From Chloroflexota bacterium (lineage in GTDB: Bacteria; Chloroflexota; Dehalococcoidia; UBA2247; RBG-13-53-26), in the NCBI GenBank assembly GCA_026389585.1, contig JAPLHP010000074.1, positions 1-46,031 of the forward strand: a DNA stretch of 46,031 nt, in the 5' to 3' direction. Numbering within the stretch: position 1 is the first letter of the stretch; every line of letters begins with the position of its first letter. The notes under the pieces were generated by a model. That model was not told where the DNA came from. It worked only from the letters and a program-made list of their open reading frames with translations, and ran no database searches. Positions 9,943 through 17,610 of the stretch are shown here, piece by piece. Made by a program: the position numbers and the translations under genes.

Positions 9943-10545
9943 ATGGCGAAGATAAACCCTCAGAGGATCAGTGGCAATTGGACTGAAGGCTTCGTCCTGG
10001 ATGTCCACACTCTCAGCAGCACTTTTCTTGGCTATGACGAGTTTGGGCACGAGAGATTCGACACAAAGCGGAGTGAACTAGGGGAATTGCTCTTTAGACT
10101 GAAATCCAGGGCTGACGAGTCAGCTCTGGATGACATATTGCAAACTGTTGTAGAATACCTGACGAAAAGCTGGCAGATCGTCGCGTCATTGGATTTGATT
10201 ATTCCGATGCCTCCCTCCAACATCTCCAGGCTCAGCCAGCCTGTGATGAAGTTGGCAAGAGGAGTCAGTTCTCGGACAGGGGTCCCCATCTCGCAAGATG
10301 CACTAGTGAAAATCAAAGAGACTCCCCAGCTCAAGAATGTCTATGACTACCATGAAAGGACAGAACTGCTCAAGGATGCTTTTAGAGCTGAAAGGTCACT
10401 AGTGCAAGGAAAATCCCTGTTGCTCTTAGACGATCTCTACAGATCTGGAGCCACCATGAATGAGGCTTCTCGAGTCCTTCGAGAGACGGGGAATGCCAAG
10501 ATGGTATATGTTCTCGCTCTAACAAAGACGAGGAGCATTAGATGA
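9943..10545 (+). CDS. ComF-like phosphoribosyltransferase
   Basis: This 200-residue type I PRTase has the PRPP-binding loop LLLLDDLYRSGATM (159-172; Asp163-Asp164 and the Ser-Gly-Ala-Thr turn). Upstream, IPMPPS and KIKETPQ with a following ER and DAF match the ComF pattern, in which a TxxQ and an ERxxN/L-x-x-AF segment precede the loop. The usual ComF N-terminal zinc finger is absent. ComF proteins are linked to natural competence, while PRTases next to SLOG proteins occur in nucleotide-signalling and defence loci. Its last codons overlap the next gene in an ATGA, so the two are translationally coupled and probably work together. The exact reaction is unknown. Confidence 0.78.
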   Translation: MAKINPQRISGNWTEGFVLDVHTLSSTFLGYDEFGHERFDTKRSELGELLFRLKSRADESALDDILQTVVEYLTKSWQIVASLDLIIPMPPSNISRLSQPVMKLARGVSSRTGVPISQDALVKIKETPQLKNVYDYHERTELLKDAFRAERSLVQGKSLLLLDDLYRSGATMNEASRVLRETGNAKMVYVLALTKTRSIR

Positions 10546-11102
10546 CAAAGGTGTTTATAGGCGGATCGAGAAGACTATCGACTTTGAGCCCTCGTGTCAG
10601 GACAAAGCTGAACAGTATTATTCACAAGCGGTACATGATCCTTGTGGGAGATGCAAACGGAGCCGACAAATCCGTCCAGAGGTACCTCACTGACAAGCAC
10701 TACAATAACGTCATGGTGTTCTGCATGGCCAATGGGTGTAGGAACAATCTTGGCCAATGGGAGACAAGGCGCGTTGAAGTCTCCGCTAGTATCAAAGGCA
10801 TTGACTTCTACTCCGCCAAGGATCTCGAAATGGTAAAAGAGGCGGACTACGGATTCATGCTATGGGACGGCAAGAGCCGAGGGACTCTTCTGAACATCGT
10901 TCGCCTGTTGGAAAGGGACAAGAAAACGTTGGTATATGTTTCGCCTAAGCGGACGTTCTTGACTTTGACCACCCCTGCTGATGTCGAAGGTCTTTTGGCC
11001 AAATGTGATGAAGAGCAGCTTGACTTGTTTGGGAACAGGACAGGCATGTCGCAAACGCCGAAGAAGAGAACGACTCAGCATCAATTAAATCTGACCCGTT
11101 GA
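10542..11102 (+). CDS. SLOG-domain protein (YspA/YpsA-like)
   Basis: This 186-residue protein has a Rossmann-like SLOG fold: VFIGGSR (4-10), ILVGDANGADKSVQ (33-46) and a third segment ADYGFMLWDGKSRGT that fits the ligand-binding strands of the DprA/LOG/YspA group. SLOG domains bind or hydrolyse nucleotides and nucleotide-derived signals, and many sit in bacterial conflict systems. Residues after about 150 (EQLDLFGNRTG and a basic tail) look disordered. It overlaps the PRTase stop by four bases, strongly suggesting a two-gene functional unit. It ends convergent with the minus-strand helicase operon. Confidence 0.75.
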   Translation: MTKVFIGGSRRLSTLSPRVRTKLNSIIHKRYMILVGDANGADKSVQRYLTDKHYNNVMVFCMANGCRNNLGQWETRRVEVSASIKGIDFYSAKDLEMVKEADYGFMLWDGKSRGTLLNIVRLLERDKKTLVYVSPKRTFLTLTTPADVEGLLAKCDEEQLDLFGNRTGMSQTPKKRTTQHQLNLTR

Positions 11103-11392: not shown

Positions 11393-12412
11393 TCAATTCT
11401 CCTTTGCCGAATGGTGCTTGTCATGGCACCAAGTACAAGTGTCAGCACCACCGGCCGGCACAAAAGAGAGCAGCTCTATGGTGCGACTCCATTCCTTGTC
11501 ATTCATGTACAGATTGGTATATGGATCCTGGATTATCCTGAGACCTTCCTGATCGAATGTATTCTTGCCTTTGACTGGCAAGAGATACAGATAGTACTTC
11601 TCCCCATCAAGCATGGATTTCCTCATTTCATTTCGGGTCCACATGAAGCTGTACCTAGAAGGCGAAACTGCTTTTACCTCAATCAGCCTTGGCGTAGCAG
11701 TAGCAGAATCAGCGCACTTCCAGTTGAAGCTCATTATGTCATAGCCAGCGCTCACATCCTTCAGGGCGATATGCTCAATTCGAGACGCTAGGTCTGGGAA
11801 TTGAGATAGTCTTTGTTTTTCATACTCAATAACTTGCAGTTCTGCTGCTCTCCCGATTTCCTCCCTGCGGTTCTGTACGGACTGGAACTGAGCCAACGAC
11901 AGTCCGCGGGTAGAGTGAGCCTCGAGGTACTCCTGAAAAGCATCATAGTCCACCGCATATCTCACTTCAACGGGGTCTGCGTAGAGGAAGTCAAGATCAA
12001 TGAGCAGGTTCCTCAAACCACTGTATTCAAGATTCTGAGAACTGGTCGGGGTGAATTCGTATCGGCCATCTCTAAGCTGGAAATGGGCCAGAAACTCGCG
12101 CACATAGTCGTGAAGGCCAGACTCCCGTCAAAGAAGATGTGTCCGCATGAAAGTCCTTACAACTTCTTCGCGCCTCTGCGACTGCCTCAAGTGAGCCAGG
12201 AGCGCTTCATAGTCTCCTATTGGTACTATCTCGTTGTGCTTCAGCGCAATCAGGTTCAACTCGCGCAGGAACTCGAGTGTCTCTGAGAAGTTCGGCGACT
12301 GCCTGATGTACTTCGCCCTTATGAACTCCATCTCCATGAACGACGAGTCCATAATGGCCTCACATAGGTCCAGTATCTGCTTCGTGGCAACCTTGTCGAA
12401 TCTAAACATCAC
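11393..12412 (-). pseudogene. DUF3883 (NO VEIN-like) PD-(D/E)xK protein with in-frame TGA
   Basis: Two open stretches, 12412-12131 (94 residues) and 12127-11393, lie in one frame separated only by a TGA at 12128-12130. Read through, they give one ~339-residue protein. The N-terminal part is helical and possibly DNA binding. The C-terminal part has GRAAELQVIEYEKQRL, then GYDIMSF, then RLIEVKAVS, the D-x19-E-x-K arrangement of PD-(D/E)xK nucleases typical of DUF3883 domains in restriction and defence proteins. The tail carries CTWCHDKHH. The start (GTG 12412 or ATG 12409) overlaps the helicase stop, so it is coupled to it. A GTG at 12103 could allow the nuclease part to be made alone. The stop may be a nonsense mutation or a sequencing error. 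Confidence 0.75.
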
Positions 12413-14307
12413 TGCCCGCCAAATAGCCGTTTGTATGCCTGTAGTTCATCATCCCCGGCAAACATATCCATAGAGTATATGGCATAGTCATCATCGATCA
12501 GAGAATACATCCTCTTGGCCTTTCTCTCCAAGTTGTCTGCTATGTCTTGCTCAATTGTGTTGCTATACCGCAGGAAGTGATAATTGGCTTGTCTGTGCTC
12601 GGAGCCACCGACACGGTGTATTCTGTCCAAGGACTGTAGATACTGAGCACAGTTGTAGCTGAGATCATAATACACGGCATGGAAACATGTTGTGTGCAGC
12701 GAAATTGACTCGGCACAAGCGGCCGGATTCGCAACCAGAATGTCCAGCCCACTGTCGGTATCCAAGAATTCAGCACGAATTGTCTCCCTTGTCTGTTCTT
12801 CATGAATCGATGTCTGTTCCGTCGGTGTCGCACCATAGATTAGTTTGCAGTAGAAGCCAGCTTCGGTGAGATGCGTGACCAACAGCTTGAGCGTGCCTAT
12901 GAAGTGAGCCCAGATTACCACTTTCTGCTTCTGACTCTGCAATTCCCGCACCAACTGAGTTAGACAGGAAAGCTTGGCAGGCGTTTCCAAAGCATCATAG
13001 TCGCGAATGATCGTACTTAAATCTGGCTCATCGTCAATGAGACTCTCTGAGTACTCCTCCAAAGCAAACGAGAGGAGCTTTGGATATGACACACATTGCC
13101 TCAGTCGGGTGACCCTTCCCCGCCGCAGTCTGTCAATCACGTCTATGTTCTTGAGATAGTCCGCCTTTGAGTAGCGCCTTATCTTGGTTTCTATGGCGTC
13201 ATAGACCTTCCGCTCAAGTATGTTCATAGATAACAGAAGAGGCTCGTGAAATTTCGGGGGCATGAGACCCAGGTCAGACTTCCTTACGCGATACGAGAAT
13301 GGACCGATGTTACTAGTCAACAACTGCCTTGCAGATTGCATATCATCGTTTCGCTCGTAGATCTGTATTCGTTGCTTTGCCTCTTGGTCCAGAGGTGTGT
13401 GGTCTGGCCACAGAAAGTCAAACATGTTAAAGACATCCATGTAGCTTCTGGGAATCGGCGTGCCCGTGAGAACACACCTGAACTTTGCATGTTTGGATAT
13501 ACTCAGTACTGCATCTGCCCACTCGCCACCCAGCTGCTTCATATAGTGAGCCTCGTCTACCACCAAGAATGCATTGACTCCGTTCTGGTCCAGAAACGCT
13601 GCAACTTCGTTGTGATCATTGAGTAGAGTCTGATAAGTTGTGAGATACAGTTCCCCCTTTTGGGAAGCAGGGCGGTAATATTCGCCCAGCCTCTGCCGTT
13701 GTTCACCTCCCGCAAGGATCCTGGTATCCGGCTTGCGGCCGAGTGTGAGAGAGAACTCGCTTCTCCAAGGCCCAAAGCATGCGGGAGGGCCCACCACATA
13801 CAGCATGTTGACTTCGGACTGCATTCTGAGTCTCTCGTATACAGTCAGAACCACCGAGGTCTTGCCACTCCCTGGTACAGAGAAGTTGGCCCCGTTGCGG
13901 ACAAGATAGAGGTGGAATGCTGCTTTCAGCTGATGACTCTTCAGTTTTCTGCAGATGAAGTTGTTGACAAACGATGCAAACTCATCGAACAACGCTTGGT
14001 CAAAAGTGCCCTCTTTGTAGCGTCTTCCTGAGGCTCTTATTGCTTGCCAAGTATCAATGGCCGAGGTTACCTTTGACAGGTAATCCGCGCAGGACGGAGT
14101 CAGAGACTGGGAGACTCCTTCTTTGTCAAAGTATCTTAGGACTTTCAGCAGCACCGTGTCGATCTGATCAGAAGATAGTGTATAGGTGTCGGTTATGGAG
14201 ACGTTTGTGAATCCCCAGAAGCGTATCTGGCTGATCTGGTTGGGCTTGAGCTTTGCCTGAACTGCATGTAGACTCAGGACGCCGTCTTTGAGATCTACCA
14301 CTATCAT
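12409..14307 (-). CDS. SNF2-like superfamily 2 helicase
   Basis: This 632-residue SF2 ATPase has an N-terminal accessory domain (about 1-125), then Walker A FSVPGSGKTS (142-151), motif II VVDEAHYM (249-256), motif III TGTPIPRS (281-288) and a C-terminal RecA domain with VVIWAHF, ILVANPAACAESISLHT (motif V) and LDRIHRVGGSE (motif VI). The motif spellings (PGSGKT, DRIHRxG) fit SNF2/Rad54-like translocases of restriction-type systems. It should use ATP to translocate on or remodel duplex DNA. The start lies 13 bases after the ParB-like stop, and the stop overlaps the DUF3883 gene start, so all three form an operon. Confidence 0.9.
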   Translation of the reverse strand: MIVVDLKDGVLSLHAVQAKLKPNQISQIRFWGFTNVSITDTYTLSSDQIDTVLLKVLRYFDKEGVSQSLTPSCADYLSKVTSAIDTWQAIRASGRRYKEGTFDQALFDEFASFVNNFICRKLKSHQLKAAFHLYLVRNGANFSVPGSGKTSVVLTVYERLRMQSEVNMLYVVGPPACFGPWRSEFSLTLGRKPDTRILAGGEQRQRLGEYYRPASQKGELYLTTYQTLLNDHNEVAAFLDQNGVNAFLVVDEAHYMKQLGGEWADAVLSISKHAKFRCVLTGTPIPRSYMDVFNMFDFLWPDHTPLDQEAKQRIQIYERNDDMQSARQLLTSNIGPFSYRVRKSDLGLMPPKFHEPLLLSMNILERKVYDAIETKIRRYSKADYLKNIDVIDRLRRGRVTRLRQCVSYPKLLSFALEEYSESLIDDEPDLSTIIRDYDALETPAKLSCLTQLVRELQSQKQKVVIWAHFIGTLKLLVTHLTEAGFYCKLIYGATPTEQTSIHEEQTRETIRAEFLDTDSGLDILVANPAACAESISLHTTCFHAVYYDLSYNCAQYLQSLDRIHRVGGSEHRQANYHFLRYSNTIEQDIADNLERKAKRMYSLIDDDYAIYSMDMFAGDDELQAYKRLFGGQ

Positions 14308-14320
14308 CTGTCAACACAAC

Positions 14321-15730
14321 CTAGCTCTTTGGTTTGTGATCCAGTTGCTTGACCACCTTCTGGCACTGGTACAATTCTTTTTCGAGATCAATGGCGCGCT
14401 GTCGGATTTCCACAACAAGTTTTCGAGCCCTGTCCAGGTCATTTGTTGCTAGAGCTTCTGGATCCATGTCCTCGTGATTGAGCTTGCCAAGAGCTGCTTG
14501 AAGGAGAGTCAGTGGAGTCTCCTGGCCTTTCGTGTGTTGGTAGCACTTCTGCGCTTTCTTGACGTGTTTTGTTATCCTAGCAACATGTTTGGCTCCCCAT
14601 ATCTTGTCTATTCTGCGTTCATCGTATTCTTTGCCGTTCTCGTCGAACCTCTCCTCTTTTGTCAAATCCAACTCAACATCTGCTAGCTTGAGGATCTCCC
14701 TCTTTGCATCCTCATTTGCCAGCATCTTTGGCAGATCTCTCATGATCTTGTGGAGCTTAGGCAGGTCCGGCAATTCCCTTCTGCGTATGATCTTGAAGGC
14801 AGCGACTTCAACCTTGCCAACCTCGTCTTCGGCAACACCTAGCTTCACACGTTTCTTGTCATCCTCGAGTTTCTGATAGACAAAAGTGTAGTAGTCTAAG
14901 AATGCCTGCCAACGGCCTTCCGGATCACCCAGGCCTGTAGATACGGTGCTGTATAGTCCATTTCTGCCAAGTTGCTCCAAGTATCGGTCAACACACTCCA
15001 GTGGTTTGAGGTACTCCTTTTCAACTTTCTGGACTTCCTCCCTGAACTTCTTGTCGTTCAAACCTGCATAGATCGGGTCATCCCTCAGTTGTTGCTCTAG
15101 TGACATCCCGAAGGCAATCTTCCGACGCATTGAAAGGGCTCTGTCGAATGCATAGTACTCGGCCTTCGCTTCGCTCTGGAGCTGGTAGCGGTTCTCGATC
15201 TGCTCGATCTCCAACAGGGTAGGTGGTCCACCTTCACCCTCTGCATCCTTACCAGGAAGTATGACCACTCTCATGTCCTGGAATCTCGGATCTGCTGGAT
15301 GCTTCTTGCGAAGGATCTTGAGAGCCATCAATCTCCGATTGCCATTTATAAGAAACCCATCGGAGGTTATGATAGCCGCTTCTCTCTGGCCCTCGTATTC
15401 CATCGAGCTGAGCAATTCCTCCGTCTTTTCTTTGTCTTTCTCCTTGAGAAAACCCTCAATCAAATGCTGAGCTGTGGCACTCGTTTCGACGAGCAATCCG
15501 TGTGCCTTTTGATAATTCAAAACATCCGACGAGATTCGCCCGTTGTCCTTCCTGTAGCGAAGTAGGTCAATCGGCACGTAGTAGATATCTCGCTCCTTTC
15601 CGTCTCTACGGTCCGTTCTGAAGTCAATCACATCCTTTGCGGGCTTCGGACCTTGCCTTTTCTTTGCCTGAATTTCTGCCGCGAAATCAGTGATTATTTC
15701 TCTGGGAATGGGCATGGTTAGCTTGTTCAT
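14321..15730 (-). CDS. ParB/sulfiredoxin-fold protein
   Basis: This 469-residue protein has a ParB-like N-terminal nuclease/CTPase-fold domain: YYVPIDLLRYRKDN (50-63) and IITSDGFLINGNRRLMALK (120-138), whose NGNRRL is the characteristic loop of the ParB/Srx superfamily. The remainder is long, charged and helical with likely coiled coil near the C-terminus (about 430-465). In defence loci such proteins may sense, nick or mark DNA; here the activity is unknown. The start at 15730 is well supported by GGAGG 6 bases upstream. It is the first gene of the minus-strand operon and is divergent from the methyltransferase. Confidence 0.8.
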   Translation of the reverse strand: MNKLTMPIPREIITDFAAEIQAKKRQGPKPAKDVIDFRTDRRDGKERDIYYVPIDLLRYRKDNGRISSDVLNYQKAHGLLVETSATAQHLIEGFLKEKDKEKTEELLSSMEYEGQREAAIITSDGFLINGNRRLMALKILRKKHPADPRFQDMRVVILPGKDAEGEGGPPTLLEIEQIENRYQLQSEAKAEYYAFDRALSMRRKIAFGMSLEQQLRDDPIYAGLNDKKFREEVQKVEKEYLKPLECVDRYLEQLGRNGLYSTVSTGLGDPEGRWQAFLDYYTFVYQKLEDDKKRVKLGVAEDEVGKVEVAAFKIIRRRELPDLPKLHKIMRDLPKMLANEDAKREILKLADVELDLTKEERFDENGKEYDERRIDKIWGAKHVARITKHVKKAQKCYQHTKGQETPLTLLQAALGKLNHEDMDPEALATNDLDRARKLVVEIRQRAIDLEKELYQCQKVVKQLDHKPKS

Positions 15731-16044
15731 GGATTCCTCCCGTATTCTTCGTGGTGGCTAATGGGTTCGTAGAACCGACTCGGTCCATCCTGCAGTGATT
15801 GACGGCCGGTGTCTTCAGCTGCGTAGTGCAATTCAGGATTATCTTTGGCCACACCAATTGAACACTCGTTACACCCAAGCCAAGGGTTGATGTTCTCTCA
15901 AGAACATAGCATGGGCGATACCAATGAGTCAATGTCCGGTAGCTGAGCAGTATCGTCTGTCCAGCGCCAGGCTACTCAATAGAGAATCCTTTGCCTCATT
16001 GGCCGAAAATGATAGACTATGGGCAGAGATAAGCAGGGGCCGCT
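15731..16044. promoter_or_regulatory. Divergent promoter region of the methyltransferase/ParB-like module
   Basis: These 314 bases separate the minus-strand ParB-like operon from the plus-strand methyltransferase and must hold both promoters. No gene is visible. GATAGACTATG shortly before the methyltransferase is a possible -10 region. I find no convincing -35 box and no clear operator. Confidence 0.4.
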
Positions 16045-16872
16045 ATGCTCGAACTTGACAAGATCTATCAAGGTGACTGCCTCGAAATACTTAGGACGCT
16101 TCCTGATGCTTCCTTTGACCTGATCTTCACATCCCCGCCTTACGCTCACAATCGAAGGTCAACTTACCAAGGAGTTGCCATGACTCGCTATGTCGAATGG
16201 TTTGTTCCAATATCGTTGGAGCTTAAGCGCGTTCTCAAGCCTGATGGCTCATTCGTCTTGAACATCAAAGAGCGCGCAGTCAATGGGGAACGTCAAACAT
16301 ACGTGCTGGAGTTAATCCTGGCCATGAAAGGCCAAGATTGGCTTTGGACTGAAGAGTATATCTGGCACAAGAAGAACTGCTATCCTGGTCGATGGCCCAA
16401 TAGATTCAGGGATGCCTGGGAGCGTTGTCTGCATTTCACCAAGCAGAAGCGTTTCAAAATGCACCAAGAAGCTGTGATGGTACCTATAGGGAGCTGGGCT
16501 GAGAAGCGATTGCCGCGGTTAACCAATGTAGATCGTATCAGAGACGAATCACGTGTTGGCAGCGGTTTTGGCAAGAATGTGTCCAATTGGCTGGGCAGGG
16601 ATAACGTATACCCAACAAATGTGCTCCATCTTGCCACTGAGTGCTCCAACAGAGGACATAGTGCGTCGTTTCCCGCGACTCTGCCGACTTGGTTTATCAA
16701 GCTTTTCACTCGCGAAGGAGAGTTAGTTCTTGATCCATTCATCGGATCAGGGACGACTGCAATGGCCTGCATCAACCTGCGAAGACACTACGTTGGAATC
16801 GAATATATGCAAAGCTACTATGCCCTAGCGGTCAAGGCAACCGAAAAGGCAAAGAACGGGGGCCAACGGTAG
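16045..16872 (+). CDS. Beta-class DNA methyltransferase (N4-cytosine or N6-adenine)
   Basis: This 275-residue enzyme has catalytic motif IV FTSPPYA (28-34) before the SAM-binding motif I LDPFIGSGTTAM (229-240), the motif order of beta-class amino-methyltransferases. S-P-P-Y is most common among N4-cytosine enzymes but also occurs in N6-adenine enzymes, so the base is uncertain. A target-recognition region is expected near 110-200, between the motifs. It starts at ATG 16045 without a strong ribosome binding site. Its divergent partner operon of ParB-like protein, helicase and nuclease suggests it protects host DNA from that module, as in restriction-modification and DISARM-like systems. Confidence 0.92.
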   Translation: MLELDKIYQGDCLEILRTLPDASFDLIFTSPPYAHNRRSTYQGVAMTRYVEWFVPISLELKRVLKPDGSFVLNIKERAVNGERQTYVLELILAMKGQDWLWTEEYIWHKKNCYPGRWPNRFRDAWERCLHFTKQKRFKMHQEAVMVPIGSWAEKRLPRLTNVDRIRDESRVGSGFGKNVSNWLGRDNVYPTNVLHLATECSNRGHSASFPATLPTWFIKLFTREGELVLDPFIGSGTTAMACINLRRHYVGIEYMQSYYALAVKATEKAKNGGQR

Positions 16873-17310: not shown

Positions 17311-17340
17311 ACTCGAACCCCCGACGCCCTGATTAAAAGA
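17311..17340 (-). repeat. Partial tRNA-Lys 3'-half copy, candidate attachment site
   Basis: ACCCCCGACGCCCTGATTAA, plus the three bases AAG that follow it, is identical to the intact tRNA-Lys at 17558-17580. The match extends to about 30 bases with two mismatches. It covers the anticodon loop through the T-loop, the segment most used as attachment core by tyrosine integrases. It lies on the 3' side of the tRNA, where an integrated element would be. No integrase is visible in the window. Confidence 0.65.
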
Positions 17341-17535: not shown

Positions 17536-17610
17536 TGGTGAGCCGCGGGGGATTCGGACCCCCGACGCCCTGATTAAAAGTCAGGTGCTCTACCCCTGAG
17601 CTAGCGGCCC
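17536..17610 (-). tRNA. tRNA-Lys (anticodon TTT)
   Basis: The cloverleaf folds completely: acceptor GGGCCGC/GCGGCTC with one G-U, D-arm GCTC/GAGC, anticodon arm CCTGA-CTTTTAA-TCAGG giving TTT, variable GCGTC, T-arm GGGGG/CCCCC, discriminator A and an encoded CCA. The T-loop reads TCCGAAT, so position 55 is C in place of the near-universal T. The partial copy at 17311-17340 keeps the normal TTCGA. It is a probable integration target for the island to its left. Confidence 0.93.

Follow-up and report, generated by a model that had tools for sequence, protein, structure and literature searches.

The window analysed here is the whole 46,031-nt stretch of contig JAPLHP010000074.1, designated C74 among the contigs of this genome. 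On its forward strand, positions 9943-10545 encode, from an ATG start, a free-standing and zinc finger-less ComF-like PRTase of 200 amino acids, recognised by its PRPP motif, its N-terminal motif and its profile matches. Positions 10542-11102 of the same strand encode, also from an ATG start, a 186-amino-acid protein that resembles the SLOG superfamily in its conserved motifs and weak profile matches. The start codon of the second gene and the stop codon of the first one share the four bases ATGA (10542-10545, forward strand), a coupling that had been noticed in the first-pass annotation and that was confirmed by the coordinates of the two genes. Such a four-base overlap, either ATGA or GTGA, occurs in most of the bacterial PRTase–SLOG loci that we compared.

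The PRTase harbours the PRPP motif LLLLDDLYRSGAT (with D163/D164 in DDLYRSGAT), and an N-terminal GNW..G..LD.HTLSS motif that it has in common with the PsyrT PRTases. The protein contains no cysteine, so the zinc finger is truly absent; together with the partial match to the NCBIfam comF model (TIGR00201; residues 46-195 only, 42.5 bits for a cut-off of 233.6), this finding upholds the earlier description of a ComF-like PRTase lacking the zinc finger. The match to Pribosyltran was below the gathering score, and the search of PDB sequences with the PRTase profile returned general PRTases only (E about 5e-4). The PADLOC PsyrT model matched the window PRTase with 71.4 bits over model positions 537-685 only, which correspond to the C-terminal PRTase part, but this match is not diagnostic alone because the genome's own canonical ComF also matches the same model, with 51 bits.

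The second protein displayed weak matches to DprA, YAcAr and Nuc_deoxyrib_tr (E 0.07-0.2), while 13 of 30 members of its family matched Pfam DprA (PF02481; best E, 8.9e-5). The conserved motifs of the family are GDAxGxD, RNN, W and WDxxSxGT, and from these motifs and the weak profile matches we regard the protein as SLOG-like, i.e. as a presumed member of the SLOG superfamily. Searching PDB sequences with the SLOG profile yielded no credible match (E 0.95), and the window SLOG matched neither the PADLOC PsyrA/ShosA models (including PDLC03961 and PDLC02997) nor any other PADLOC model. Upstream of the pair no operator-like inverted repeat was found, and the promoter and terminator scans remained at background level.

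Conservation of the pair and its genomic settings

That the PRTase and the SLOG protein form a real functional pair is supported by the following lines of evidence. First, the scan of genome contigs yielded 34 loci, most of them with the PRTase gene directly upstream of the SLOG gene. Second, among 398 Pseudomonadota genomes the PRTase was present in seven and the SLOG in the same seven, always adjacent to each other, a co-occurrence whose chance would be about 1e-13 if the two genes were independent (one of the seven genomes is the seed; without it, the values are six of 397 and about 2e-13). Similarly, the SLOG occurred in two of 301 Chloroflexota genomes, both times with the PRTase, one of them being the window's own genome. 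Third, the search for other PRTase–SLOG pairs, which the first-pass annotation had suggested, found 55 non-redundant pairs, whose PRTases can be as little as 23% identical; in these pairs the DD active-site motif of the PRTase is conserved and the PRTase and SLOG distance matrices are correlated (mirrortree, r=0.86; the highest value in 2000 permutations was 0.126). This correlation, part of which comes from the common descent of linked genes, shows co-inheritance; for a contact between the two proteins it is no more than suggestive.

No neighbour besides the PRTase and the SLOG was conserved over 44 loci; beyond these two, the comparison gave only ORFs antisense to them and ABC ATPases of a common kind. 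This finding does not support the earlier idea that the pair is controlled by a nearby helicase/methyltransferase module. The first-pass annotation had also viewed neighbours that differ every time as an argument against the pair; this turned out to be true of the outer neighbours and wrong for the pair, which stays together. A stable pair with changing outer neighbours is what one sees in a mobile module that is self-contained.

Of the plasmid records, 98 contained the SLOG and 70 the PRTase, in hosts that include Agrobacterium, Xanthomonas, Listeria, Klebsiella, E. coli, Methylorubrum, Sagittula and Acinetobacter. On plasmids, the vicinity of the pair can include CBASS, restriction and VapC genes; in two Agrobacterium plasmids the pair has CBASS genes on one side and a gene for a VapC toxin on the other. 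With the SLOG alignment as the query, matches were found in 25 viral contigs, comprising 21 close members (L116-L136) and four distant ones. The close members have the PRTase directly upstream in 20 of the 21 cases, the exception (L133) being cut by the contig end, whereas the four distant ones have no PRTase. In some prophage-like contigs, the pair adjoins ORFs that we judged, by eye from the sequence, to be terminase-like or integrase-like. The GenBank phages gave no SLOG match and only distant PRTase matches.

We also observed that 29 of the 30 SLOG members match phrog_289 (up to 3.6e-10), a group of phage proteins named 'GTP-binding domain' with examples in Delftia phage PhiW-14 and Salmonella phage Vi01. 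These phage proteins may be relatives of the SLOG, perhaps with a counter-defence role.

In the window, the segment 9228-16872 has a GC content of 0.486-0.498, compared with 0.53-0.58 for much of the remaining window, and two upstream genes also have low values (0.485 and 0.503). This low-GC segment fits an island and does not prove it. A direct repeat of about 23 bases (17317-17339 and 17558-17580), corresponding to part of the tRNA-Lys gene (17536-17610), is perhaps the remnant of an integration beside the low-GC segment; it was rejected as an island end, as it does not flank the pair.

Positions 11393-16872 encode, on the minus strand, a NOV_C-type nuclease-like protein (best PADLOC match PD-T4-1, 3.5e-16), a small ORF, an SNF2-like helicase and a 469-amino-acid protein with a weak ParB-like match, and, on the plus strand, an N6/N4 DNA methyltransferase. 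We regard this gene set as a candidate defence system in its own right, which is not conserved with the PRTase–SLOG pair.

Kinship of the PRTase and its relation to competence

In agreement with the earlier remark that neither comEA nor comEC lies nearby, no competence gene was found among the genes scanned around the window pair. The true ComF of the genome, endowed with a double zinc ribbon (DZR_2), is encoded on contig C36 (locus L038), its ComEC on C24 and its DprA on C86, in a set of metagenome-assembled contigs that may be misbinned. In five of the six other genomes reached through the family loci, a further ComF-type PRTase with a lower score was found; the remaining one (L015, SLOG alone) had only a low-scoring ComF-type PRTase. 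The first-pass annotation would have yielded to the finding of an ordinary DNA-uptake locus in relatives; this was checked and is not so in the relatives examined. Together, these data support the conclusion that neither in this genome nor in these relatives is the pair a competence locus. The window PRTase has the PRTase core and the PRPP motif in common with the competence PRTase ComF/ComFC, but it is devoid of the zinc ribbon, possesses another N-terminal motif and belongs to a separate clade, in a genome where the true ComF is elsewhere.

The scores of the family profile in Chloroflexota indicate this separation. The two pair members scored 245-283 bits, and four full-length cousins (L061-L064) scored 124-157 bits, whereas the ComF-type matches reached at most 86 bits and covered only the positions from about 45 on; the zinc-finger cysteine pattern was present in 14 of the 21 ComF-type matches that were read. 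All four cousins have a DprA-like SLOG gene downstream. In L061 (L061:429-2046) the PRTase is free-standing and its partner scores as both ShosA (2.4e-30) and PsyrA, and L062-L064 are RecQ-family-PRTase fusions, of which the partners in L062 and L063 score as PsyrA/ShosA; the partners of L061-L063 were scanned against the models, and that of L064 was judged by its likeness to the L063 partner, with which it is nearly the same. L061 is, by itself, the observation of a ShosTA-like pair in a Chloroflexota genome.

In the maximum-likelihood tree, for which the ComF rows were the 14 matches with the zinc-finger cysteine pattern, the family and the L061-L064 cousins split from ComF with a support of 100/100, and L061 falls inside the free-standing PRTase branch. 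The support for this deep split falls to 92/74 upon addition of the strongly diverged RqlH-type PRTase of E. coli (L147), because its place in the tree is unsure. In the reciprocal comparison of the PsyrT PRTase domain of L062 by tblastn with 72,556 plasmids, the free-standing family PRTases (1e-25 to 1e-26, matched over nearly their full length) ranked ahead of the E. coli RecQ-PRTase. On sequence grounds, the window PRTase groups with the PsyrT/ShosT-like PRTases of its own phylum, away from ComF. As for the E. coli plasmid NZ_OX030731.1 (L147:1-6462), its RecQ-PRTase gene and its dprA gene, which overlap by four bases as seen from both coordinates and sequence, separate the S subunit gene from the R subunit gene of a type I restriction operon.

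By motif alignment, residue R167 of the window PRTase is the counterpart of D663 in RqlH, and this position is mostly R, D, H, Q or E in the relatives. We take it to be the catalytic base position of the HGPRT-type enzymes. Given this difference between R167 and D663, the reaction may differ from that of RqlH.

Proposed role of the pair and alternative readings

We favour first a reading in which the PRTase is the toxin and the SLOG protein the antitoxin, because the closest characterised relatives of the pair are RqlHI/PsyrTA and ShosTA (PMC4670107, PMC9122126). RqlH is genotoxic in E. coli through its PRTase domain, its toxicity is abolished by the D663A and DIVD663EVME mutations, and the DprA-like RqlI restrains and binds RqlH, probably via the PRTase domain (PMC4670107). 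A DprA and PRTase pair from a hotspot of P2-like prophages defends E. coli against T7 and lambda, and the authors likened it to the toxin-antitoxin systems shosTA, syrTA and rqlHI (PMC9122126). Iyer et al. (2017) reported solo PRTases in mobile elements, as well as a link between helicase-PRTase proteins and DprA (PMC5512222).

Similarly to PsyrTA/RqlHI, the window pair comprises a homologous PRTase domain, a PRTase-then-SLOG gene order and a partner from the SLOG superfamily. However, its 200-residue PRTase has no N-terminal RecQ helicase, the helicase part of the PsyrT model being unmatched, and its partner is a short non-DprA SLOG, whereas that of PsyrTA/RqlHI is DprA-like; the hhalign comparison of the SLOG with the DprA-like antitoxins gave a weak probability of 5.5%, the DprA-side alignment having only four rows. 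ShosTA and the DprA-PRTase pairs of P2-like prophages resemble our pair in their free-standing PRTase, their adjacent SLOG and their mobile-element setting, but ShosA is a DprA-type protein. Type III retrons also employ a PRTase as the presumed immune effector (PMC12548924, PMC9122126), but with a winged-helix protein in the place of the SLOG, and no reverse transcriptase was recognised beside the window pair. Finally, type II toxin-antitoxin systems are likewise small two-gene operons with overlapping genes, mobile and patchy; some SLOG homologues carry an antitoxin-type DNA-binding domain, which is absent from the window SLOG.

We consider it likely that the two genes make up a compact toxin–antitoxin or abortive-infection module of a PRTase toxin and a SLOG antitoxin, the role of the module probably being abortive infection or plasmid/prophage addiction. 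First, by homology, the PRTase is most likely the toxin. Second, two different antitoxin-type DNA-binding domains occur on the SLOG side, namely a C-terminal PF21716 'probable addiction module antidote protein' domain in L042 and L044 (E 1e-21 to 1e-23) and a C-terminal HTH_37 domain in L047 and L055 (E 1e-19), which suggests that the SLOG is the antitoxin. Third, at least eight loci have the SLOG without the PRTase (L014, L015, L029, L032, L052, L053, L054 and L058), while no intact family PRTase without the SLOG was found among the loci read, which include part of the plasmid records; this again points to the SLOG as the antitoxin, since a lone antitoxin is viable and a lone toxin is not. 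The lone SLOGs of the Mesorhizobium, Shinella, Planktothrix and Methylobacterium plasmids (L052, L058, L053 and L054, respectively) are possibly anti-addiction antidotes.

We infer the toxicity of the PRTase, the direction of the couple, its chemistry, its trigger and its anti-phage role, and propose that they operate as follows. The zinc-finger-less PRTase would be a toxic effector that retains its PRPP-binding site and probably phosphoribosylates an unusual acceptor (a nucleobase, a nucleotide or a nucleic acid), or else exhausts the PRPP supply. Its SLOG partner, produced from the same mRNA through coupled translation, would bind the PRTase and restrain its activity. Like DprA, it may sense nucleotides or single-stranded nucleic acid, such as ssDNA, a property suggested by its superfamily. 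Invasion, or loss of the element, would then free the PRTase toxin.

The idea of the first-pass annotation that the pair handles a nucleotide signal, with the PRTase making a nucleotide-like second messenger and the SLOG sensing or degrading it, is possible but unlikely; it also reflects how SLOG proteins of conflict systems are generally viewed. It would agree with the DD motif kept by the PRTase across the 55 pairs, with the invariant GDAxGxD and WDxxSxGT-type loops of the SLOG, which are typical of ligand pockets, and with the role predicted for SLOG proteins elsewhere, in conflict systems where they would sense or process nucleotides (PMC6459960). However, a SLOG sensor leaves the system with no effector, unless the SLOG itself is the effector; the antitoxin HTH domains that some SLOGs carry better fit neutralisation and autoregulation; and the nearest characterised relative acts by direct protein binding (PMC4670107). 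It is more doubtful still that the roles are reversed, i.e. that a weakly NDT-like SLOG is a toxic nucleoside- or NAD-cleaving enzyme for which the PRTase serves as the antidote or repair enzyme. The weak Nuc_deoxyrib_tr match (E 0.12) and the NDT-like genes known as retron accessory genes (PMC12548924) are consistent with such a scheme, but in the loci read it is the SLOG, never the intact PRTase, that occurs alone and that is fused to the antitoxin HTH domains, and the PRTase is the toxic part of RqlH (PMC4670107). As to an accessory DNA-uptake or DNA-processing couple that aids transformation or the handling of incoming DNA, the combination of a ComF-like PRTase with a protein distantly like DprA would suit it, but its patchy distribution (about 1-2% of genomes), its plasmid and prophage settings, its lack of a zinc finger and the separate ComF, ComEC and DprA of the same genome make this most improbable.

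Returning to the toxin–antitoxin reading, we found in the open literature no description or experimental test of this PRTase–SLOG family. A gene pair of a SLOG protein and a PRTase was already mentioned for one branch of the YpsA SLOG proteins by Brzozowski et al. (2019; PMC6459960). YpsA corresponds to PF06908, a model that the SLOG family does not match (one of the 30 members studied here gave a hit, at E 0.031), but an overlap with the YpsA–PRTase branch is possible. Within this literature, the compact non-YpsA, non-DprA variant presented here appears to be new. In a broader and more tentative proposal, the pair would represent an unnamed and widespread family of minimal modules, each with a stand-alone PRTase toxin of altered chemistry (an arginine at the catalytic-base position) that is kept in check directly by a non-DprA SLOG; the family would act in plasmid or prophage addiction and in phage exclusion, and the lone SLOGs would be anti-addiction or anti-defence antidotes.

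What the toxic PRTases (RqlH/PsyrT, ShosT and those of the type III retrons) do chemically is an open question in the published work, and a PRTase of about 200 residues with a 186-residue partner and no helicase, DprA or RNA would ease the assay of this chemistry. On many plasmids, clinical ones of Klebsiella among them, the annotation of these modules reads 'ComF family protein' and 'hypothetical protein', so that they have probably been overlooked as a stability or defence system.
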